64,000 nt of DNA. It comes from Strigops habroptila. Taxonomy: Eukaryota > Chordata > Aves > Psittaciformes > Psittacidae. This document shows positions 11,173 to 54,986 of the stretch, in pieces. Numbering within the stretch: position 1 is the first letter of the stretch; each line of letters begins with the position of its first letter. The stretch is taken from positions 27,308,252 through 27,372,251 of the forward strand of contig NC_044301.2 in NCBI RefSeq assembly GCF_004027225.2. Direction: 5' to 3'. Both the position numbers and the translations under genes were made by a program. The notes beneath the pieces were generated by a model, which saw only the letters and a program-made list of their open reading frames with translations, was not told the origin of the DNA and did not search any database.

Positions 11173-11235
11173 ATGGATCTCATCAGGTCCCATAGATATG
11201 TGTATATTCAGGTTCCTCAAATGGTCACAAATGTG
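11173..11235 (-). mobile_element. CR1 LINE, continuation after provirus
   Basis: The minus-strand CR1 interrupted at 7886 resumes with the sequence equivalent to 45157-45220 (ATGGATCTCATCAGGTCC) and ends near 11235, where an opposite-strand CR1 starts. Confidence 0.8.
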
Positions 11236-11244
11236 GCAGGGGAG

Positions 11245-12757
11245 ACAACATGATCAGGCAGGTTGTTTTCCCAGGGCGAGGCCCATCCCCTCCATTCCGG
11301 GTATGCTGACCCCTGCAATTTCCCCAAATGCGGGAAACTTGACTACATAATTTGTGGTAGTGAGGGACTGTGTTCACGCTCTCCCCTGTTAATTTACCCC
11401 TTCTAGGGAACCTAGATGTGAAATTACCTCTCTGAAGTGCCTGTATACAAATGTGCATAGCATGGGAAATAAACAGGATGAACTGGAAATCCATGCGGGG
11501 TCTCAGGGTCATGATCTCATTACAATTACTGAGACATGGTGGGATAGCTCACATGACTGGAATGTTGTCATGGATGGCTCTGTACTTTTTAGAAAGGACA
11601 GGTTAGAAAGGTGAGGTGGTAGAGTTGCTCTTTATGTGAAAAGGCAACTGAAATGTATCAAGCTCTACACAGGGACAAATGAACAAGTAGAGGGTCTATG
11701 GGTGAGAATTAAGGGACCAGCTAATATTGGGTACACTGTTGTGGGTGTTTACTATAGGCCACCTGATCAGGAGGAGGAACTTGATGAGGCCTTCTATGGG
11801 CAGCTGGAAATAGCCTCATGGTCAGAGGCCCTTGTACTCTTGGGGGTCTTCAATCAGCCAGATATTTATTGGAGGGATAAAACGGTCCAGTGCACACAGT
11901 CCAGGAAATTCCTGCAGATCACTGAAGATAACTTTTTGTTACAAGTGGTGGAGGAGCCAACCAGGAAAGGTGTGTTGCTGGACCTTGTACTTGCAAACCA
12001 GGAAGGACTGGTTGATGACATAAAGGTTGGGGGCAGCCTTGTCTGTAGTGACCAGGAGATGGAGGAGCTCAGGATCCTTTGTGGGGGAAGTAAAACAGTA
12101 AGCAGGACTAGAACCCTAAACTTTTGGAGAGCTAACTTCAGCCTCTTCAAAGACCTACTTAGAGGAATCCCATGGGATAGGGCTCTAGAAAAGAAGGGAG
12201 TTCAAGAGAGCTAGTCAGTATTTAAGCAGCACTTCCTCCAAGCCTAAGACCAGTGTATCCCCATGACAAAGAAATCAGGCAAAGGGGCAGGAGACCTGCA
12301 TGAATGAGCAGGGAGTTCCTAGTAAATCTTAAACTCAAGAAGGAAATTTATGGAGGTGGAAAAAGGGCCAGGCCAAGTGGGACGACTATAGGAACATGAG
12401 TGTATGCAGGAATGCAACAATGAAGGCCAAGGCCCACTTAGAACTGAGTCTGGCAAAGGACATCAAGGACAACAAGAAGGGCTTCTACAAGTATATCGGC
12501 AGCAAAAGGAAGATTAGGGAAACTGTGGGGCCGCTGCTGAATCAGATGGGTGTCCTGGTAACAGAAGACACAGAGAAGGCGGAATTACTGAATGCCTTCT
12601 TTGTGTCAGTCTTTACCCCTAAGAATGGCCCTCAGGAGTCCCAAACCTCAGAGGTTAGAGATGAGGGCCGGAGAAAGGAAGACTTCCCCCTGGTCATAAA
12701 GAGTTGGGTTAGGGATAGGCTAGACAGACTTAACACCCATAAATCCATGGGCCCTGA
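11245..12757 (+). pseudogene. CR1 ORF2, endonuclease part
   Basis: This plus-strand CR1 begins upstream of ORF2 and enters the APE-type endonuclease at about 11440. Recognisable landmarks are TETWWD (about 11530), VGVYYRPP (about 11740) and the FNQPDIYW and SDQE regions. The normally conserved D of the DFNHPD motif and H of the SDH motif are replaced (VFNQPD, SDQE), so the nuclease would be dead. The 192-codon frame at 11636-12214 ends early, and a second piece at 12396-12779 covers the linker to RT. It is cut by a solo LTR at about 12757 and resumes at 13450. Confidence 0.88.
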
Positions 12758-18279: not shown

Positions 18280-18345
18280 CCCGATACTGCTTAACTTTCG
18301 AGATCAGACAAAATAGGGTGTTCCCAGGGCGGGATGGCCGTAGGC
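18280..18345 (-). other. 5S rRNA-derived segment in gag
   Basis: On the minus strand these 66 bases align without gaps to bird 5S rRNA nucleotides 1-66, as I know that sequence, with about 56 identities. The first 15 bases (GCCTACGGCCATCCC) are identical. It is read in frame as 22 codons of gag. It stops before the intermediate element and C-box of the 5S promoter, so it is not a 5S gene. Confidence 0.85.
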
Positions 18346-23543: not shown

Positions 23544-24048
23544 TTCTTCCTCCCCCCGCTCCCGGGGGGATGGGGAGGAGAATCGGAAGAATGTAACTCC
23601 CACGGGTTGAGATAAGAGCAGTCCAGTAACTAAGGTATGATATAAAACCACTACTACCACCACCAATAATAATAATGATAAGGGAAATAACAAGGGGAGA
23701 GGATGTAATTGCTCACCACCTGCCGACCGATACCCAGCCTGACCCGAGCAGTGATCTGGGCCTTCTGGGTAACTCCTCCCGGTTTATATACTGGGCATGA
23801 CGTGCCATGGTATGGAATACCCCTTTGGCCAGTTTGGGTCAGGTGTCCTGTCTCTGCTTCCTCCCGGCTTCCCCTCCTCCCTGGCAAAGCATGAGACTGA
23901 GAAAGTCCTTGGTCGGAGTAGACATTACTTAGCAACAACTAAAAACATCGGTTGTATCAGCGTTGTTCCCAGGCTGAAAGTCAAAACCACAGCACTGCAC
24001 CAGCTACTAAGAAGGAGAAAAATGACTGCTATAGCTGAACCCAGGACA
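23544..24048 (-). repeat. ERVL LTR, second piece
   Basis: Continuation of the LTR that starts at 18910. Together the pieces make about 566 bp, the same as the intact LTR at 52925-53490. The U3 end GAACCCAGGACA (24037-24048) abuts the polypurine tract of the upstream internal region. Confidence 0.94.
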
Positions 24049-24478
24049 GTATCCACCCCTTATTCCATACCATTCATGTCATGCTCAGATCCCACATCTC
24101 TCAACACACCATCGCCCCTGTCCCATATATACACATACATATATACCCACACCCACACACAAAGAGAAAGATATCATTCCTTAGTCCATGGACCAATCCC
24201 TATAAAATTGCTGAATTCATCCAGTCCATGATGTCAGGCTCCATCTCTTGTAATAGTCTTTCAGGGCAGGAGGGATGGTGTGTAGTGTTGGGTTGTTGCC
24301 TGCTGATGACACCGCCAAACTCGTCTGGTCACTGCTGAGCTCGTCTGGTTTCCTCAAAATTCATTCTTTGTTGAGGTGATGATCAGAGGGAAGTCAGGGT
24401 CAGTTGAGGGCGACCTGAGGATATCTAGGTGATGGGCTATAGAAGTGTTATATAGCAGGCAACAGCATACAACCGAGT
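24049..24478 (-). other. ERVL 3' untranslated region
   Basis: Minus-strand region between integrase and LTR. The polypurine tract (GGAATAAGGGGTGGATAC on the minus strand) adjoins the LTR. A CA/TA-rich run lies at 24130-24165. There is no env frame in these 430 bases. Confidence 0.72.
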
Positions 24479-25345
24479 TCATTGGCTGTTTTCCCCCAAA
24501 ATCAAATCCCCTTGAGGTACACATCGGACTTCCCCATCTTCCCGCATTACCCACCAAGTATATCCAGGTCCCTGAGCAAAAGCAACCCCACGAGTGGGTT
24601 TGCCTTTACCTGAAGCAGGAATAACCCAGACTGTCTTCCCCAACAAATTCTTTATGTGCACCACAGGAACTTTATCCCCCTCTACAGTACGTAAAAGTTC
24701 TGATTGGGCTGGGCCAGCCCTGTTGGCAGATCCCCTACTGTTGACCAACCAGGTGGCTTTTGGTAAATGTGTATCCCAGTGTTTGAAAGTCCCACCACCC
24801 ATTGCTCTCAGTGTAGTTTTTAACAGCCCATTGTACCGTTCGATTTTCCCAGAGGCTGGTGCATGGTAGGGGATGTGATATACCCACTCAATGCCATGCT
24901 CTTTGGCCCAAGTGTCTATGAGGTTGTTCCGGAAATGAGTCCCACTGTCTGACTCAATTCTCTCTGGGGTGCCGTGTTGCCACAAGACTTGTTTCTCAAG
25001 GCCCAGGACAGTGTTCTGGGCAGTTTCGTGGGGCACAGCGTATGTTTCCAGCCATCCGGTGGTTGCTTCCACCATGGTAAGCACATGGCGCTTGCCTTGG
25101 CAGGTCGGTGGGAGTGTGATAGAGTCAATCTGCCGGGCCTCCCCATACTTGTACTTCAGCCATCGTCCTCCATACCAGAGAGGGTTTAACCACTTGGCTT
25201 GCTTAATTGCAGCACATGTTTCACATTCGTGAATAACCTGGGCAATAGTGTCCATCGTTAAGTCCACCCCTCGATCACGAGCCCATCTACATGTTGCAAC
25301 CTTGATGGTCTGAGGTGTCATGGGCCCACCGGGCTAAAAATAATT
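24479..25345 (-). pseudogene. pol: ERVL-like integrase, mostly intact
   Basis: A 280-codon frame, the longest integrase here. It contains the CC half of the zinc-binding domain (HECETC), the catalytic core with aspartates in QIDSITLP and ESDSGTHF and the glutamate in GKIERYNG, and a C-terminal domain with GYTWWV and CVPQGDLIL. The HH half of the zinc domain lies in another frame upstream; near 25341-25375 a short AATTCACCCTTAT duplication has broken the junction with RNase H. It would insert viral DNA into host DNA if whole. Confidence 0.9.
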
Positions 25346-27080
25346 CACCCTTATATTAATAATTCACCCTTATGTTGCCAATCTAAGTCCATCTGAGCCA
25401 CTTCAATCTTAGCAGCTTTATCCACTTGCTGGTTGTTCTGGTGTTCCTCAGTGGCCCAACTCTTGCGTACATGAGCATCTACGTGGCGTACCTTCACCAC
25501 CAGGTTCTGCATCCGGGCAGTGATATCTTGCCACAGTACAGCAGCCCAGATGGGTTTACCTCTGCGTTGCCTGTTGCTCTGCTTCCATTGCTGCAACCAC
25601 CCCCACAGGGCATTTGCCACCATCCATGAGTCAGTATAGAGATAAAGGACTGGCCATTTTTCTCATTCAGCAATATCCAAGGCCAGCTGGATGGTTTTCA
25701 CCTCTGCAAACTGACTCTATTCACCCTCTCCTTCAGCAGTTTCTGCAACTTGTTGCAGGGCACTCTACACAGCTGCCTTCCATCTCCGATGCTTTCCCAC
25801 AATAGGGCAGGACCCATCAGTAAACAAGGCATATTGCTTTTCACTCTCTGACAGTTCATTATGTGGTGGGGCCTCTTCAGCACGCGTCACCTCCTCCTCT
25901 GGTGACATCCCAAAATCTTTGCCCTCTGGCCAGTCCATGATGACTTCTAGAATTCCTGGACGACTGGGCTTTCCTATTCGAGCTCGTTGTGTAATTAGTG
26001 CAGCCCACTTACTCCATTTAGCATCAGTAGCATGATGTGTAGAGGAGACCCTGCCTTTGAACAGCCAGCCCAGCACAGGCAACCGGGGTGCCAGGAGGAG
26101 CTGCGCTTCAGTTCCGATCACTTCTGAGGCAGCTCGAACCCCTTCATAGGCTGCCAGTATCTCTTTTTCAGTGGGAGTATAGCTGGCCTCGGATCCTTTA
26201 TATCCCCGACTCCAAATGCCGAAGGGTCGACCTCGAGTCTCCCCTGGAGCTTTCTGCCAGAGGCTCCAGGTAGGACCATTCTCCCCGGCTGCACTATAGA
26301 GCACATTTTTCACATCTTGCTTGGTCCGGACTGCTCCAAGGGCTACTGCATGAACTATTTCTTGTTTAATTTGTTGAAAGGCTTGTTGTTGCTCAGGGCC
26401 CCATTTGAAATCATTCTTCTTCCGGGTCACGTGATAAACAGGGCTTACAATCAGACTGTAATTTGGGATGTGCATTCTCCAGAACCCCACAACACCTAAG
26501 AAAGCCTGTGTTTCTTTCTTGTTAGTTGGTGGAGACATTGCTCTTATCTTGTTGATCACGTTTGTGGGGATCTGGCGACATCCATCTTGCCATTTCATTC
26601 CCAAAAGTTCAATCTCCTGTGCAGGTCCCTTGACCTTACTCCGTTTTATGGCAAAACCGGCCTTCAGCAAGATTTGGATTATCTTCCTCCCTTTCTCAGA
26701 AGCTTCTTCTGCTGTACCGCCTCCATGATGATGTCATCAATGTATTGCAGGTGTTCTGGAGCTTGCCCCTGTTCCAGTGCAGTCTGGATCAATCCATGGC
26801 AGATGGTGGGGCTGTGTTTCCACTCCTGGGGCAATCGATTCCAAGTGGACTAGATGCCCCTCCAAGTGAAAGCGAACTGTGTCCTGCACTCTGCTGCCAA
26901 AGGGCTTGAGAAAAATGCATTGGCGATGTCACTTGTGGCATCCCACTTGGCTACCTTTGACTCCATTTCATACTGAATTTCTAGCATGTCCGGCACATCA
27001 GCACTCAATGGTGGTGTGACTTCGTTCAGGCCACGATAGTCTACTGTTAGTCTCCACTCTCCATTAGACTTTTGCACTGG
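25346..27080 (-). pseudogene. pol: ERVL-like reverse transcriptase and RNase H
   Basis: Minus-strand RT runs from the VDYRGLNEVTPP block (about 27020-27045) through the YIDD active site (encoded at 26733-26744), thumb and connection (SPPTNKKETQAFLGVVGFW) to RNase H (LFTDGSC, about 25830). The long 301-codon frame 26670-25765 covers thumb, connection and early RNase H. Frame breaks occur around 26680-26850, and within RNase H near 25765 and 25625. The final RNase H and linker lie at 25351-25623. Confidence 0.9.
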
Positions 27081-27541
27081 TCATATGGGGCTATTAAAGG
27101 GTGAGCAGGTCGTGCTGATCACTCCTTGGCTCTCCAGACTACAGATCAGCTTATGGATGGGAATCAAGGAGTCTCGGTTGGTGCGATATTTCTGCCGGTG
27201 CACTGTTGTGGTCGTGATTGGCACTTGTTGTTCTTTGACCTTCAGCAACCCCACAACAGAAGGATCCTCTGAGAGACCGGGTAAGGTGGACAGCTGCTTA
27301 ATTTCCTCTGTCTCCAAGGCAGCGATACCTAAAGCCCATCTATACCCTTTTGGGTCTTTGAAGTACCCTCTCCTGAGATAGTCTATGCCAAGGATGCATG
27401 GATCCCCTGGACCAGTCACAATGGGGTGCTTTTGCCACTTCCTCCCAGTCAGGCTGATTTCAGCCTCTAGTACAGTCATTTCTTGGGATCCTCCTGTCAC
27501 TCCAGAAATAAAAATTGGTTCCACCCCTTGATACCTTGATG
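27081..27541 (-). pseudogene. pol: ERVL-like protease C-terminal part and RT start
   Basis: A 154-codon frame beginning just after the CR1 insertion. It holds the protease region after the active site (ISGVTGG, ILGIDYLRRG) and the linker to the RT N-terminus. The active-site part is on the other side of the CR1 (28823 onward). Confidence 0.85.
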
Positions 27542-27545
27542 GCAT

Positions 27546-28822
27546 AGAATCATAGAATCATAGAATAGTAAGGGTTGGAAAGGACCTTAAGATCATCTAG
27601 TTCCAACCCCCCTGCCATGGGCAGGGACACCTTGCCCTAAACCATATGGTCCAAGGCTCTGTCCAACGTGGCCTTGAACACCGCCAGGGATGGAGCATCC
27701 ACAGCCTCTCTGGGCAACCCATTCCAGTGCTTCACCACCCTCACTGTAAAGAACTTCTTCCTTATATCTAACCTAAACTTCCCCTGTTTAACTTTGAAGC
27801 CATTACCCCTTGTCCTACCACTACAGTCCCTAAGGAAGAGTCCCTCCCCAGCATCCTTATAGACCCCCTTCAGATACTGGAAGGCTGCTATGAGGTCTCC
27901 ACGCAGCCTTCTCCAGGCTGAACAGCCCCAAGTTTCTCAGCCTTTCTTCATATGGGAGTTGCTTCAGCCCTCTTATCATCCTCATGGCCCTCCTCTGGAC
28001 GTGCTCCAACAGCTCCATGTCCTTTTTATTTTGAGGACACCAGAACTGTACACAGTACTCCAAGTGAGGTCTCACAAGAGCAGAGTAGAGGGGCAGGATC
28101 ACCTCCTTTGACCTGCTGGTCATGCTTCTTTTGATGCAGCCCAGGATACAGTTTGCTTTCTGGGCTGCAAGCACACACAGCTGGCTCATGTTAAGCTTCT
28201 CGTCAACCAACACCCCCAAGTCCTTCTCTGCAGGGCTGCTCTGAATCTCTTCTCTGCCCAACCTGTAGCAGTGCCTGGGATTGCCCGGACCCAGGTGTAG
28301 GACCTTGCACTTGGCTTGGTTAAACTTCATAAGGTTGGCATTGGCCCACCTCTCAAGCATGTCAAGGTCCCTCTGGATGGCATCCCTTCCTTCCAGCGTA
28401 TCAACCAAACCACACAGCTTGGTGTTGTCTGCAAATTTGCTGAGGGCGCACTCAATCCCACTGTCCATGTCGCCAACAAAGATGTTGAACAGGACCGATC
28501 CCTGAGGGACACCACTCGTTACAGGTTTCCAACTGGACATCGAGCCATTTACCACAACTCTTGGCGTGCAGCCCTCAAGCCAGTTTTTTATCCACCGAGT
28601 GGTCCATCTATCAAATTGATGTCTCTCCAATTTAGAGACAAGGATGTCATGCGGGACAGTGTCAAATGCTTTGCACAAGTCCAGGTAGATGACGTCAACT
28701 GCTCTGCCCCTGTCCATCAGTTCCGTGGCTCCATCATAGAAGGCCACCAAACTGGTCAGGCAGGATTTCCCCTTAGTGAAGCCATGTTGGCTGTTACCAA
28801 GCACCTCGTTGTTTTTCAATGT
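27546..28822 (-). mobile_element. CR1 LINE inserted in ERVL protease
   Basis: A 1277-bp 5'-truncated CR1. Its tail (three ATTCTATG-type octamers) is at 27546-27570, and a 320-codon minus-strand frame (28819-27857) covers RT from [11 protein letters not shown] through [17 protein letters not shown] and KFADNTKL to the C-terminus. The second active-site aspartate of FADD is read as N. GCAT flanks both ends (27542-27545 and 28823-28826), a short target duplication in the protease gene. Confidence 0.94.
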
Positions 28823-28960
28823 GCATCAGGGTACACTGTGCACCGGTATCTACTTGAGTCTTATACTTCTGTGGGACTGATGTGCCAGGCCATCTGATCC
28901 ACACAGTCCAGTAAACCCGATTGTTTTTTTCCTCCATGTGGCTGGACGCAGGGCCCCTCT
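28823..28960 (-). pseudogene. pol: ERVL-like protease, active-site part
   Basis: The minus strand encodes the region leading to the protease active site; the equivalent of [10 protein letters not shown] lies immediately at the CR1 junction. Stops and a missing aspartate context suggest decay. It is split from its C-terminal half by the CR1. Confidence 0.75.
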
Positions 28961-30785
28961 AATAGAGATCAAAAGATTCTCCACTTATGTCTTGTATAAA
29001 GAGATTAGTATTCCTTATCACAGGAGCTGGAGTAAAATCAGCTCTTCCACTCCATCTGGGAAACTGCTCACCAGACACTGGAGCAGCAGCTTTCATGGGA
29101 GGTTCATCCTTGACCATTGTTCTCCTCTTCAGTTCACGCACCCGTTGCTCCAGAACTGAGGTAGGTTTTCCATCCCACTTTCTCATGTCTTCTCCGTGAT
29201 CCCCCAGGTAAAACCATAGGGTGGACCGTGGTGTGTACCTCCTATATTTTCTCTCTCGAGCAGTAGGGCACCTTCTGTTAATAGTTGAGACATGGGTTGG
29301 TACACGTGGGGAGCTGGATAGATCGGATAAATCGTCTCTCACTTGTTTGAACTCCTGGGACAGTTTTTCCACAGCTGAAATGATGGAAGGGGTGAGATTG
29401 TCTTTGAACTCTTGGAGTTGACGAATCAGCTCATCCACCGTTGGTGATGTTCTGTCATTCCAGGTCATTGATGCCAATGAGTGGGCATATGATGATGGTG
29501 CACTCCGTGTAAGTTTCCGCCACATGGGTCATGTACATTCGACTTCATCTGGATCTACGGATGCGTTTGTGGGGTCTGGCCTATGATAGATCATCTCTGG
29601 AATGGCTGATTCCCTCAGGGACTGGATGCCTTTCTCTATCGTGGTCCAGTTGGCTGAGCGACACATAACATCATCCATGTAGGGAAACCTTTCCTTCCCA
29701 GCTGCCAAGAGCCTCCTCCAAAGGCTGAGGGCTTGTTTCTCTTTTGCAATCGCTTTGTCATTTCCTCCTTCCCTAGCAAGTGATCCCATCTGCTTGGCTT
29801 CCCTACCTTATAGTTCGTTACCTTCGGCCCCACTGTCCCAGCATCGGAGCAACCAGGTGACAATGTGCTCCCCTGGAAGACGGGTGAAATCTTTTTGCAT
29901 ATTCTGCAGCTCGGTCGAGGTCAGGGGTCGTCAAGTCACCTGTTCTTCCTCTTCCTCTGATCCACATATTAGTAACTCTTGTTCACATCCTGTTCCCTGT
30001 AGTAACTGCATTGGGTCTTCTTCTTTCTTCATTGCAGGGGTTGCTCTTTGTGCCTCTCGTTTGCCTTTGCTTACAGGGGCAACCGATATTGTCTCAAATT
30101 GGCTATTTGATTTAGCTGCACTGTCTGTTACTGTGGTTGGAGCGGCTGCAGTGTCTGCCTCTAGGACTGGAGTGGCTGCAGTGTCTGTTGCAGGGGTTGG
30201 TGCAGCTGCTGTGCTTGGCGGTTGAGTAACACGAACAGCTGCGTTGTCTGTTCGTGTCGAGGTTTGAGTAGCTGCTGTGCTTGGAGTTGGAGTAGCTGCG
30301 TTGTCTGTTGCTTTGCCATCAGATCCAGAGACACCTTTTTCCCTTAGAAGGTGCTGGATAGTGTTGAGCAGGGCTCTGTAGGTGTAGGCCAAGCCCCAGC
30401 ACGTTGCAGCGAGTTGTCCCTCTCTGGTATAAACAGAACAACAGCACACTTAAATAAAGTGTTTTACTAGTTTTTCCGGATGTTGCACTTGTTCAGTGGT
30501 GATGTTCCAAAGCACTGGAGGGGCCCACTGGCCTAGATACTTGCCCATACTATCCCACACACCCTGCCACTCATGACTGTCCAGCCTCAGGGAAAATCTC
30601 TTGGTGGTCCTCCTATATTGTCGTCTAACCCTAGACCAGATTCGAACCCGATACTGCTTAGCTTTTGAGAACAGACATAATAGGGTGTTCCCAGGGTGGG
30701 ATGGCTGTGGGTAAAAAACACTCCGTATGTTTGCCAACATGCTGATCCCCAGCACAATCAGCAGGCAGGTCTCAAGGGTATTCAA
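28961..30785 (-). pseudogene. gag: ERVL-like gag, broken into several frames
   Basis: Minus-strand gag reads in pieces: 30785-30450 (hydrophobic segment, 5S-like segment, basic block, WAPPVLW), 30449-29931 (AYTYRALL, then the Thr/Ala/Pro domain, then an acidic EEEEEQ run), 29789-29529 and 29525-28959 (WTTIEKGIQSL, then a predicted helical DELIRQLQEFKDNL stretch and an Arg-rich RRCPTARERKYRR run that may bind RNA). No CCHC zinc knuckle is visible. Frameshifts separate the pieces. Confidence 0.8.
30647..30712 (-). other. 5S rRNA-derived segment in gag
   Basis: The third diverged copy of the 66-nt block, about 52 of 66 positions matching 5S rRNA nucleotides 1-66 by eye, gap-free and in gag frame. 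Confidence 0.8.
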
Positions 30786-30904
30786 AGGCCATCCAAAACC
30801 TTCCGAACTCTCAACTGCTGTTTTAAATAGCCTGATGGGGGGGCGGGGGGTATAAGGGAATGCCTTCTTCGTAGGTTGACTCTCTGAGGAAAATAAATAA
30901 AAAA

Positions 30905-31183
30905 TTAATTGCTAAAATATTTCATTATATACCTCCCAATGTATAGAGGTGATGGCCACGCTGGAAGCACAAACCAGACCAGTTTCATGATCAATGAGTC
31001 TATTGTATTACAAGTCATTACCATGAAGTACAGTGAAACAAGAACCTTAGCCCAGGCTCCCCAGCCGATAAACACTAAAACAGCAAATAGTGGCTGTAAG
31101 TAAGGTACAACATGCTGAAACTCTGAGATCAAGCGCAACAACTCTGAGAGCCAATAAATCAACGTTGTGATGAGTAGTAACAA
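30905..31183 (-). pseudogene. Hydrophobic leader ORF of ERVL
   Basis: A 92-codon open frame between primer site (31250-31267) and gag, homologous to 18545-18847. It keeps SEFQHVVPYLQP, GAWAKVLVSLYFMVM and SPLYIGRYIMKYF. Amino-acid differences from the 53553 copy are mostly conservative, and the frame has no internal stop although neighbouring gag has several. Confidence 0.6.
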
Positions 31184-31249
31184 TTAATGCTTATCACAAA
31201 TATGATTAGACACACTCTGGTCAGATCTGTCATTATCTCAACCCTTCGT

Positions 31250-31267
31250 GCCCCACGTTGGGCGCCA
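31250..31267 (-). promoter_or_regulatory. ERVL primer-binding site, tRNA-Lys1,2
   Basis: The minus strand reads TGGCGCCCAACGTGGGGC, a perfect match to the site complementary to tRNA-Lys1,2. It lies eight bases inside the LTR border. Confidence 0.92.
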
Positions 31268-31275
31268 CAAAGAAC

Positions 31276-31819
31276 TGTCGTGGTTTGAGCCCAACCGGTA
31301 ACTCACTTCCCCCTTTCTTCCTCCCCCCGCTCCTGGAGCGATGGGGAGGAGAATCGGGAGAATGTAACTCCCACGGGTTGAGATAAGAGCAGTCCAGTAA
31401 CTAAGGTACAATACAAAACCACTACTGCTACCACCAATAACAATAATGATAAGGGAAATAACAAGGGGAGAGGATACAATTGCTCACCACCCGCCGACCG
31501 ATACCCAGCCCGTCCCAAGCAGTGATCTGGGCCTTCCGGGTAACTCCCCCCAGTTTATATACTGGGCATGATGTGCTGTGGTATGGAATACCCCTTTGGC
31601 CAGTTTGGGTCAGGTGTCCTGTCTCTGCTTCCTCCCGGCTTCCCCTCCTCCCTGGCAAAGCATGAGACTGAGAAAGTCCTTGGTTGGAATAAACATTACT
31701 TAGCAACAACTAAAAACATGGTGTTATCAGTGTTGTTCCCAGGCTGAAAGTTAAAAAACACAGCACCGCACCAGCTACTAAGAAGGAGAAAAATGACTGC
31801 TGTAGCTGAACCCAGGACA
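31276..31819 (-). repeat. ERVL 5' LTR
   Basis: A 544-bp LTR in minus orientation, TGTCGTGG to CCCAGGACA on the plus strand, slightly shortened near 31310 compared with other copies. It is the upstream LTR of the tandem provirus and lies inside gag of an older ERVL. Confidence 0.93.
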
Positions 31820-32366
31820 AGTGTCTGTTACTTTGTATCAGATCCAGAGACCTTCTATTCCCCTTGAGGGTACTGGATAGTGTTGAGCAGGGCTCTGTAG
31901 GCATAGGCCAGGCCCCAGCATGTTGTGGTGATTTGTACCTCTCTGGTATTGCCAGGTTGACAGCATACCTTTTCCGAAGTATTTTACTAGTTTTTCTGGA
32001 TTTCACACTTGTTTTGGGGGTGAAGTTTCAAAGCACTGGAGGGGCCCACTGGCCTAGGTACTTGCTCATACTGTCCCGCACCCCTTGCCACTCATGACTG
32101 TCCAGCCTCGGGGAAGATCTCTTGGTGGTGTTCTTAGATAGTTGTTTAACCTTAAACAAGACCTGAACCATATTCATCAAAATGATGGTTCCCAGCAAAA
32201 GGAGCAGGTTGGTTTCAAGGGTATTCAAAGGATATTCAAAATCTTTAAAATTCTCAGATGCTACTGTAAGTAGCCTGTTGGGGGAGGATATCTCCTCCAT
32301 AGGCTGGCCCTCTGGTGGGTGAGTGTCTACGTAAAGATGTGTAATTATTAATATTATTAAAGGGAC
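31820..32366 (-). pseudogene. gag: Older ERVL gag fragment lacking the 5S segment
   Basis: Minus-strand gag of a diverged subfamily: a 90-codon frame (32300-32028) with LNTLETNLLLLLG, then a direct join into VQVLFKVKQ and SPRLDSHEWQG. Compared with the copies at 18 and 54 kb the protein is 26 residues (78 nt) shorter exactly where they carry the 5S-like block. Leader and primer site are deleted, and the younger provirus entered at 31820. Confidence 0.8.
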
Positions 32367-52038: not shown

Positions 52039-52924
52039 CTTGAAAGCACCCTGCTCCTTTTGCTGGGAATCAGCATGTTTCTGCATATGTTCTCGATGTT
52101 TTGCCTATGGCATGAACACCCTGAGAACGCCTGATCTTGTCCAATCTCAGAAGCTAAGCAGGGTCCGGCTTGGGTCTTGTCTAAGGTTTAATGACTATTT
52201 AAGAATACCACCAAGAGATCTTCCCCGAGGGTGGACAGTCATGAGTGGCAGGGCGTGCAGGATTGTATGGGCAAGCTCCTAGACCAGCTGGCCCCTCCAG
52301 TGCATTGGAATTTCACTCCTGAACAAATGTGGAATCCGGAAAAATTAGCAGAACACTTAGACAAGGTGTGCTGTCATTCTGGCAATACTGGAGAGGGACA
52401 ACTTACTGCGCTGTGCTGGGGTTTGGCCTATGCCTACAGAGCCCTGTTCTGTAAGGAGCAGGAAAAAGATGTCTCTGGATCTGATGGCAAAGCAACACAC
52501 AACGCAGCTACTCAAACCCCAAGCACAGCAGCTCCCCCAACTCCAGCGACAAGCACAGCAGCTACTCAAACCTTGACAACAGACATTGCAGCCACTTCAA
52601 CCCTAGTGAAAGACACTGCAGCTACTCCAAGTCCAATGACAGGCACTGCAGGCACTCCAACCTCAGTGAAAGACACTGCAGCCACTCCAATCTCAGTGAC
52701 AGACACTGCAGCCTCTTCAAGCCCAGTGACAGACACTGCAGCCACACCAATCCCAGTGATAGCAGCCACTCCAACTCCAGTGAAAGATATGGAATCTGAA
52801 CCAAAGGATCAATCCATGCCACTATCCGTCGCCCCTACAAGCAAGAAGAAAAGCAAACGAAAGGCATGAAAAACAACTCGTGCAGCGAAGGAAGATGAAG
52901 ACTCAGCGGGCGAAATAGAGAGGG
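52039..52924 (+). pseudogene. gag: Older ERVL gag with 5S segment
   Basis: Starts at the hydrophobic LLLLLGISMFLHM-type region, passes the 5S-like block (52103-52168) and a broken basic region. It then has a 212-codon frame (52231-52869) with DSHEWQGVQD, WAPPVHWNFTPEQ-like sequence, CWGLAYAYRAL and a Thr/Ala/Pro domain. The repeat unit here is about 13 residues (39 nt; KDTAATP-type) instead of 27, so the tract evolved separately. It ends with a Lys-rich tail and is cut by the next LTR. Confidence 0.8.
52103..52168 (+). other. 5S rRNA-derived segment, least altered 3' half
   Basis: About 52 of 66 positions match 5S rRNA nucleotides 1-66 gap-free. The second half is closest to 5S of all copies: AGAAGCTAAGCAGGGTC (52149-52165) is exact apart from the first base context, whereas the younger copies share GCAGTATC here. 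Similarity may extend to about 52174. Confidence 0.83.
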
Positions 52925-53498: not shown

Positions 53499-53516
53499 TG
53501 GCGCCCAACATGGGGC
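53499..53516 (+). promoter_or_regulatory. ERVL primer-binding site, tRNA-Lys1,2
   Basis: TGGCGCCCAACATGGGGC matches the tRNA-Lys1,2 site at 17 of 18 positions. It starts eight bases after the LTR, a wider gap than the two bases in the class II proviruses nearby. Confidence 0.92.
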
Positions 53517-53879: not shown

Positions 53880-54986
53880 TCAGGGGGTGAACCTACGAAG
53901 GAGGCATTCCCTTACACCCCCGGCACCCCCACCAGGCTATTTAAAACAGCATTTGAGAGTTCTGAAGGTTTTGGATAGCCTTTGAATACCCTTGAGACCT
54001 GCCTGCTGATTGTGCTGGGGATCAGCATGTCGGCACACGTACGGAGTGTTTTTTACCCACAGCCATCCCACCCTGGGAACACCCTGTTTCGTCTGATCTC
54101 GAAAGTTAAGCAGTATCGGGTTCAAGTCTGGTCTAGGGTTAGACGACGATATAGGAGGACCACCAAGAGATTTTCCCCGAGGCTGGACAGTCATGAGTGG
54201 CAGGGTGTGTGGGATAGTATGGGCAAGTATCTAGGCCAGTGGGCCCCTCCAGTGCTTTGGAACTTCACCCCTGAACAAGTGCAACATCCGGAAAAACTAG
54301 TAAAACACTTAAACGAGGTGTGCTGTCGTCCTGGTTATACCAGAGAGGGACGACTCGCTGCAACGTGCTGGGGCTTGGCCTACGCCTACAGAGCCCTGCT
54401 CAACACTATCCAGCACCTTCAAAGGGAAAAAAATGTCTCTGGATCTGATGGCAAAGCAATGGACAACACAACTACTCCAACTCCAAGGACAGCAGCTACA
54501 CCAGCCCCAGTGACAAGCACAGCAGTTACTCAAACCCCGACAGCAAAAGACAATGCAGCTGTTGGTGTTAATCAACCCCTAAACACAGCAGCTGCACCAA
54601 CCCCTGCAACAGACACTGCAGCCACTCCAACCCTAGTGGCAGACACTGCAGCCACTCCAGCCACAGTGATAGACACTGCAGCTAAATCAAATGGCCAATT
54701 TGTGACAATTTGTGTAAGCAAAAGCAAACGAGAGGCACAAAGAGCAACCCATGCTGTGAAGAAAGAAGAAGTCCCAATGCATTTACTACAGGGGACAGCA
54801 TCTGAACAAGAGTTACTACTACATGGGTCAGAGGAAGAGGAAGAAGAAGAAGAGGTGACTTCTCGACCCCGGACCTCGACCGAGCTGCGGAATATGAGAA
54901 AAGATTTCACCCATCTTCCAGGGGAGCACATCATCACCTGGTTGCTCCGATGCTGGGACAATGGGGCCGACGGTCACGAACTATAA
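53880..54986 (+). pseudogene. gag: ERVL-like gag, N-terminal half
   Basis: Frame open from 53982 for 334 codons, with a stop codon just upstream (near 53968-53970) where sister copies read through, so the true N-terminus is lost. In order: hydrophobic LETCLLIVLGISM, the 22 residues encoded by 5S-like DNA, a basic RRRYRRTTKRF block, DSHEWQGVWDSMGKYLGQWAPP, AATCWGLAYAYRALL, the Thr/Ala/Pro tract (about residues 165-245), a Glu-rich run (about 285-297) and a short tail. It stops at 54986; the gag C-terminus continues in another frame from 55128. Confidence 0.82.
54055..54120 (+). other. 5S rRNA-derived segment in gag
   Basis: About 54 of 66 positions agree with 5S rRNA nucleotides 1-66, with no gap. 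GCCATCCCACCCTGG (54063-54076 region) and CGTCTGATCTCG (54090-54101) are exact. It is translated within the gag frame. The 5S copy is in the sense orientation of the viral RNA. Confidence 0.87.

Follow-up and report, generated by a model that had tools for sequence, protein, structure and literature searches.

The gag gene of an ancient parrot retrovirus appears to contain the first part of host 5S rRNA as coding sequence

The initial part of the host's 5S rRNA appears to have been copied into the Gag gene of an ancient parrot retrovirus, where it is read as protein. In the window, which is the whole stretch of 64,000 nucleotides analyzed here, four gag copies of an endogenous retrovirus (ERV), c1 to c4, carry a block that aligns without gaps to nucleotides (nt) 1 to 66 of 5S rRNA. 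The block originates from 5S, occupies a single insertion site, and starts at the 5S transcription start, and joins between 5S and ERV sequence recur in the same genome. Host-RNA capture, 5S in long terminal repeats (LTRs), and 5S/LINE-1 chimeras are already known. For the block, we consider it highly probable that template switching of the reverse transcriptase (RT) brought the 5' part of host 5S RNA into the N-terminal region of gag in a foamy/ERVL-like retrovirus of the parrot lineage.

The four blocks were scored against the host 5S, human 5S, and chicken 5S.

54055..54120, plus strand: 5S-derived gag block of c1, 52/66 to chicken 5S, 51/66 to host 5S, 49/66 to human 5S; frame open
to 54125, plus strand: sequence after the c1 block, either native or 5S nt 67 to 71
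18280..18345, minus strand: 5S-derived gag block of c2, 54/66 to chicken 5S, 53/66 to host 5S, 51/66 to human 5S
30647..30712, minus strand: 5S-derived gag block of c3, 50/66 to chicken 5S, 49/66 to host 5S, 47/66 to human 5S
52103..52168, plus strand: 5S-derived gag block of c4, 50/66 to chicken 5S, 54/66 to host 5S, 51/66 to human 5S

The first 11 nt of the c2 block are exactly those of the host 5S, and in c4 the match may extend to nt 71 (position 52173; 58/71 to host 5S). Copies c1 to c3 are 90 to 92% alike over about 700 nt; c4, at about 75 to 76% to these three, belongs to an older, broken gag lineage. A first-pass annotation of this DNA had placed ungapped 5S matches at these four places, where they indeed lie, but its scores of 54, 56, 52, and 52 were about 2 too high. 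It had also suggested a comparison with shuffled sequence, and such controls, all run with the chicken reference, do not reach the observed match: the best matches in 20 random 64-kb order-1 Markov sequences were 31 to 37/66 over both strands, and shuffled 5S references gave at best 36/66 (n = 200). The next-best window site beyond the four blocks scored 32/66. The Rfam 5S model picked up only two of the four blocks, at 23.4 and 22.7 bits (E values of 2.2 and 3.2) against a cutoff of 38, so this model alone would have missed them. Elsewhere in the window, positions 11225 to 11388 (plus strand) match U1 snRNA with 104.9 bits, above the Rfam cutoff, and are a gene or pseudogene.

The host 5S genes form an array on contig C8. 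Two 5S sequences, differing at nt 12, were found in the 20 array units examined (12 and 8 units), and the commoner one (12/20 units) was used as the host reference. At 69 of 71 sites, the host base is present in at least one of c1 to c4, and of the two exceptions, one is variable in the host itself. The 5S base is kept in c1 to c3 and lost in c4 at 9 sites, and the reverse holds at 10 sites; this reciprocal retention points to a common ancestor nearer to 5S. The 5' flank of the host 5S gene ends with GAGAGAGAGT in 19 of the 20 units and is absent from the block. Since the block begins at 5S nt 1 without the gene flank, it was copied from RNA.

The window has a fifth gag copy, c5, in which the site is preserved without the block.

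31800..32285 (approximate), minus strand: c5 gag remnant around the empty site, found by tblastn with parrot and non-parrot Gag
32162..32173, minus strand: empty site of c5, ATATGG/TTCAGG, where gag has no block

At the block site, c5 reads ATATGGTTCAGGTCTTG, and the block is absent. This block-free copy has to be added to the earlier description, which named four copies on both strands. A match continuing up to nt 120 in c1 to c4 was considered and rejected, as the downstream sequence is native gag, as c5 shows; 5S sequence beyond nt 66 to 71 is absent from all four copies.

We searched the window's genome (1.149 Gb, 89 contigs) with a c1 query that contained the block and a c5 query that did not, and scored the best 40 matches per query. 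The block was present in 40/40 c1-type loci, c1 included, with 50 to 54/66 to chicken 5S and 49 to 53/66 to the commoner host 5S. An intact empty site was present in 30/30 c5-type loci examined, c5 included. Because the queries select the block state, 40/40 and 30/30 are not frequencies; they establish that both states exist. Locus L001 is the window's c1 and L021 its c5, with L002 and L022 as identical copies. The window lies on contig C25 (37.4 Mb), possibly the W chromosome, as do 34 of the 40 best c1-type matches.

The block is part of an open gag frame, and the features of the c1 element around it are as follows.

53982..54986, plus strand: c1 gag open frame with the block, 334 codons in the open reading frame list, homologous to database Gag proteins
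54049..54054, plus strand: T-run that immediately precedes 5S nt 1 in c1, with TTTT as its counterpart in c2 to c4
53499..53516, plus strand: primer binding site of the c1 element, read from the sequence, which we take to be of the lysine-tRNA type

The gag frame passes through the block in c1 to c3. In c4 the block frame is interrupted by a stop, so the in-frame translation claimed for all four copies holds for only the first three. Among the best 40 matches of the c1 query, c1 included, all 40 loci have a block without an internal stop, and TTTT stands directly before 5S nt 1; the T-rich filler ahead of nt 1 measures about 4 to 13 nt. The 3' junction falls in the range from nt 66 (c1 class, with native GTTCA next) to nt 71 (c4, GCTTGG). 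The block sits outside the LTR, within gag and some 550 bp downstream of the 5' LTR, and presumably ends before polymerase III (Pol III) box C. One sense frame of the host 5S is open in nt 1 to 66, and the other two have stops; in the gag frame, the host 5S meets a stop at nt 114 to 116. Translated in the gag frame, the host 5S reads LRPHHPENARSRLISEAKQGRAR, and the Gag protein of Guaruba reads PWPHHPENTRSCPISEAKQGQAQ, with 16 of 23 residues equal. The number of residues equal to the translated host 5S is 14 in Melopsittacus, 15 in c4, and 11 in c1 and c2.

The pol pieces match RVT_1, RT_RNaseH_2, RNase_H, and rve. The integrase piece is closest to prototype foamy virus (PFV; 4.5e-14), and the RT piece is closest to reverse transcriptase p80 chains, which we take to be of the XMRV/MLV type, followed by other families. 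Hallmarks of ERVL (class III ERVs) are a dUTPase behind the integrase and a tRNA-Leu primer; no dUTPase was found in 17 different stretches scanned, which covered part of pol. Judged by sequence, ERVL would be a plausible family. The c3 provirus occupies window positions 23544 to 31694 (minus strand), with two LTRs about 93% alike (ungapped), and is broken by sequence that carries its own reverse-transcriptase frame (27860 to 28819).

We collected at least 205 related proteins, one search contributing the best 120 of 298 matches. Among the matches listed, the block occurs in at least 11 database Gag proteins, all from parrots: Guaruba, Melopsittacus, Amazona (2), Neopsephotus (3), Pezoporus (2), and Lathamus (2). 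In 9 of these 11, the class B parrot proteins, about 7 codons inside the block are missing. Of the 205 listed proteins, 24 were flagged as carriers, of which 13 (scores of 31 to 44) were dropped as chance and 11 (scores of at least 228) were retained; another 111 do not span the site, and 70 were classed as lacking the block by a loose rule that admits some proteins with an unrelated fused upstream part (e.g., P0011, P0013, and P0020). Listed relatives without the block include those of Morphnus, Accipiter, Buteo, Mycteria, Theristicus, Anser, Anas, and Manacus, and no block was seen in Gag of these named non-parrot birds among the matches listed. Compared with Morphnus Gag, Guaruba Gag has 23 additional codons at the site. 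A gradual origin in basal members was rejected, as the named non-parrot relatives span the site without the block; the wider survey proposed in the first-pass annotation thus found no grading into non-5S sequence. A region search with P0001 returned P0001 and P0002 only. One relative of bird Gag, P0193, is filed under Klebsiella pneumoniae, and this record is probably host contamination of the assembly.

A 44-row protein tree of the neighboring region groups the 15 block rows in one clade, with support of 83/75, which is not strong, and a single change accounts for the block. Copy c5, with half its columns empty, is sister to the block clade within a parrot group supported at 98/95. The flanks gave a poorly resolved DNA tree of 58 rows (25 of the 40 c1-type loci with c1 to c4, and 28 of the 30 c5-type loci with c5). 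The best tree needs two changes for the block, and block copies are monophyletic in 15% of bootstraps; the AU test does not reject a single clade (p-AU of 0.51).

Copies of 5S are also dispersed outside the array. Of 33,183 first-look candidates, 47 were scored, a choice that favors near-full-length 5S, and all 24 matches outside contig C8 (L091 to L106 and L108 to L115) were examined; L107 (119/119, array-like) was examined too and is excluded from the 24. The copies lie on contigs C1 to C4, C6, C7, C25, and C26 and are mostly near-full-length. In 18/24, the ERV family of the block or a related LTR begins within 12 nt of the 5S 3' side. A LINE-like element does so in 2/24 (L094 and L106), which brings the joins to 20/24; comparable edges at other offsets on the 3' side number 1 to 4/24. 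On the 5' side, joins were found in 7/24, versus 0 to 2 at other offsets. At L092, L095, L096, L104, and L108, 5S is joined to an antisense LTR at or near the U5/primer-site end, and in L096 six primer-site bases come first at the join. At L102, 5S joins gag in sense; at L103, it lies inside pol in sense, with pol on both sides; and at L099, it joins antisense gag that begins inside the block. The empty sites in paralogues and non-parrot relatives, the host 5S with its gene flank, and these recurrent joins in the same genome support the first-pass view of the block as a 5S-derived segment in sense orientation that is read as codons and was plausibly captured by template switching.

Such a capture would begin with 5S RNA inside the particle. 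The minus strand, while being made on gag RNA, would jump to 5S RNA at about nt 66 to 71, where GG is common to 5S and the native site, and the enzyme would copy to the 5' end of the 5S RNA and run off there, at nt 1. After the addition of a few bases that are T-rich when read in sense, synthesis would go back to gag RNA at the same place; the direction of both jumps is the one we infer. The insertion left the gag frame intact, with 23 codons gained (26 in the c1 lineage).

Three dispersed loci, L104, L112, and L113, carry the gag N-terminal flank and a T-run ahead of a long 5S, i.e., at the block's gag site. Their 5S reaches nt ~119, ~112, and ~116, respectively, and each then joins a different ERV part. 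The gag-flank alignment scores are 48, 27, and 39, against shuffle maxima of 13, 15, and 12; in the other 22 loci, no gag flank ahead of 5S scored above its own shuffles. A G at nt 23 is common to c1 to c4, L104, L112, L113, L094, L097, and L106 and is absent in the other 19 of the 25 loci. In L094, 5S nt 1 to 66 have 9 differences, several of them as in the gag block, and nt 67 to 119 have 1, and this locus is a possible mosaic of block and cellular 5S. The three loci with gag flank arose in one of two ways: either the first capture was longer, or the block recombined later with 5S RNA of the cell. The second course belongs to a broader idea that we put forward tentatively, namely that 5S rRNA takes part regularly, beyond a single event, in the reverse transcription of this ERV and that the gag block is a landing pad for recombination with cellular 5S. 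Time and again, and often at the U5/primer-site end, the enzyme would switch from its template to the 3' terminus of 5S and copy to the 5' end, and the homologous gag block would let viral genomes recombine with cellular 5S RNA, as in L104, L112, and L113.

The longer 5S at the block's gag site in these loci also means that the first capture may have been longer. Full-length or near-full-length 5S would then have been captured first, and the coding lineages would later have lost nt ~67 to 119 by a frame-restoring deletion, a course that we think unlikely. It is favored by the gag flank and T-run before long 5S and by the similar divergence of the two 5S halves in L104 (8/66 and 6/53) and L113 (8/66 and 9/50). 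The three loci, however, never run on into native gag, the c1 class, c4, and the parrot proteins all have the short form, with a common 3' end, and L104, L112, and L113 would also result if the block had recombined with cellular 5S RNA.

The joins in L094 and L106, together with a LINE-like element on the 5' side of L091, are what would be expected if LINE machinery (CR1 type) had joined 5S RNA to ERV RNA, in the manner of the 5S/LINE-1 chimeras documented in human (PMC13174262). The LINE-like reference stretches are putatively CR1, to judge from their RVT_1 and endonuclease matches. We hold this route to be improbable, as five joins lie at the U5/primer-site LTR end, a place special to viral reverse transcription, the block is embedded in gag and flanked by native sequence, and no exact direct repeats were found at 16 dispersed loci, where the far insert ends lie outside the range examined. 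Some of the dispersed chimeras may nevertheless be products of LINE machinery. Entry of DNA from a 5S-derived SINE or 5S pseudogene into a provirus that then spread is very unlikely. Vertebrate 5S-derived SINEs such as AmnSINE1 are described (PMC3234267), and dispersed 5S copies are present in the window's genome, but the block ends at nt 66 to 71 and passes straight into native gag without a SINE body or tail, and no SINE body is common to the 24 dispersed copies, in which 5S is mostly followed by ERV at differing coordinates.

From chicken 5S, pN/pS was 1.4 to 4.6 in six c1-class copies and 0.67 in c4 (three uncertain codons excluded); among 17 distinct c1-class blocks it was 2.1, and in neighboring gag 2.0. 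The dN/dS check that had been suggested for the block gave no sign of purifying selection on its peptide, with pN/pS above 1 in the c1-class copies, and dN/dS is a poor test of constraint in dead paralogues. The predicted folds of the blocks differ from that of 5S and are weaker (-13 to -17 versus -23 to -25 kcal/mol). Of 15 helix II/III pairs, 11 are kept in c1, c2, and c4, 8 in c3, and 10 to 12 in the 40 c1-type loci, and partner-slid controls keep 2 to 7. The excess over these controls would suit a block kept as an RNA element that mimics the 5S beta domain and binds a 5S partner protein, rather than as a peptide. We give this very little credence: descent from 5S would by itself leave such pairs, c3 keeps only 8, the folds are weak and unlike 5S, and the class B parrot proteins lost about 7 codons within the block. 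A function as RNA structure was rejected on the same grounds. With no purifying selection seen and a decaying 5S fold, the block is best read, though with low confidence, as a tolerated coding spacer that separates a hydrophobic segment from the basic part of Gag. P0001 and P0002 have a hydrophobic stretch directly ahead of the insert, and the structure prediction of P0001 Gag has a mean pLDDT of 42.3. Chance or convergence as the source of the 5S likeness was rejected and has a negligible probability, given controls of at most 37/66 against 47 to 54/66 observed, the reciprocal retention of 5S bases in two lineages, and the empty sites.

Known systems resemble parts of this capture. It is reported that 5S rRNA occurs in virions of murine leukemia virus (MLV), that 7SL was patched into a recombinant, and that host sequences served in patch repair (PMC4997597). 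The likeness, as far as that source describes it, is that host RNA in the particle is copied into viral cDNA; the parrot ERV differs in having an rRNA piece that is inherited in frame in gag throughout an ERV lineage, with filled and empty sites in one genome. The elements Cassandra and Ajax TRIM are likewise LTR retroelements with 5S-derived sequence, carried in the LTRs of noncoding elements with Pol III promoter boxes A, IE, and C kept, according to the parts of PMC10886601 and PMC7215508 that treat them. Unlike these, the parrot ERV block lies in gag and is translated. In human, 5S is found in 27 of 253 catalogued LINE-1 chimeras, which are similar in being single-event joins of 5S RNA to a retroelement; there 5S is described as mostly truncated, antisense, and at the LINE-1 5' end (PMC13174262), whereas in the parrot genome it is mostly near-full-length and at many ERV places, with one piece coding. 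AmnSINE1 has a 5S-derived promoter (PMC3234267), and AmnSINE1/SINE3 share with the block the presence of 5S-derived sequence in a mobile element (PMC3234267 and PMC10886601), but by their description they are set apart from it, as no SINE body, tRNA part, or tail stands beside the block. In titles and abstract openings, we found no report of 5S-derived coding sequence in gag or of 5S-ERV chimeras.

A structural rRNA was here turned into inherited retroviral protein sequence, with the states before and after in one genome, and the window's genome holds an independent record of many similar 5S-ERV joins. This offers a natural system in which to test how often host RNA enters retroviral genomes, at which points the enzyme jumps, and how a noncoding RNA fares once it is translated. 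It also calls for caution with bird genomes, in which a repeat resembling 5S may be neither a SINE nor a gene copy but a retroviral chimera.
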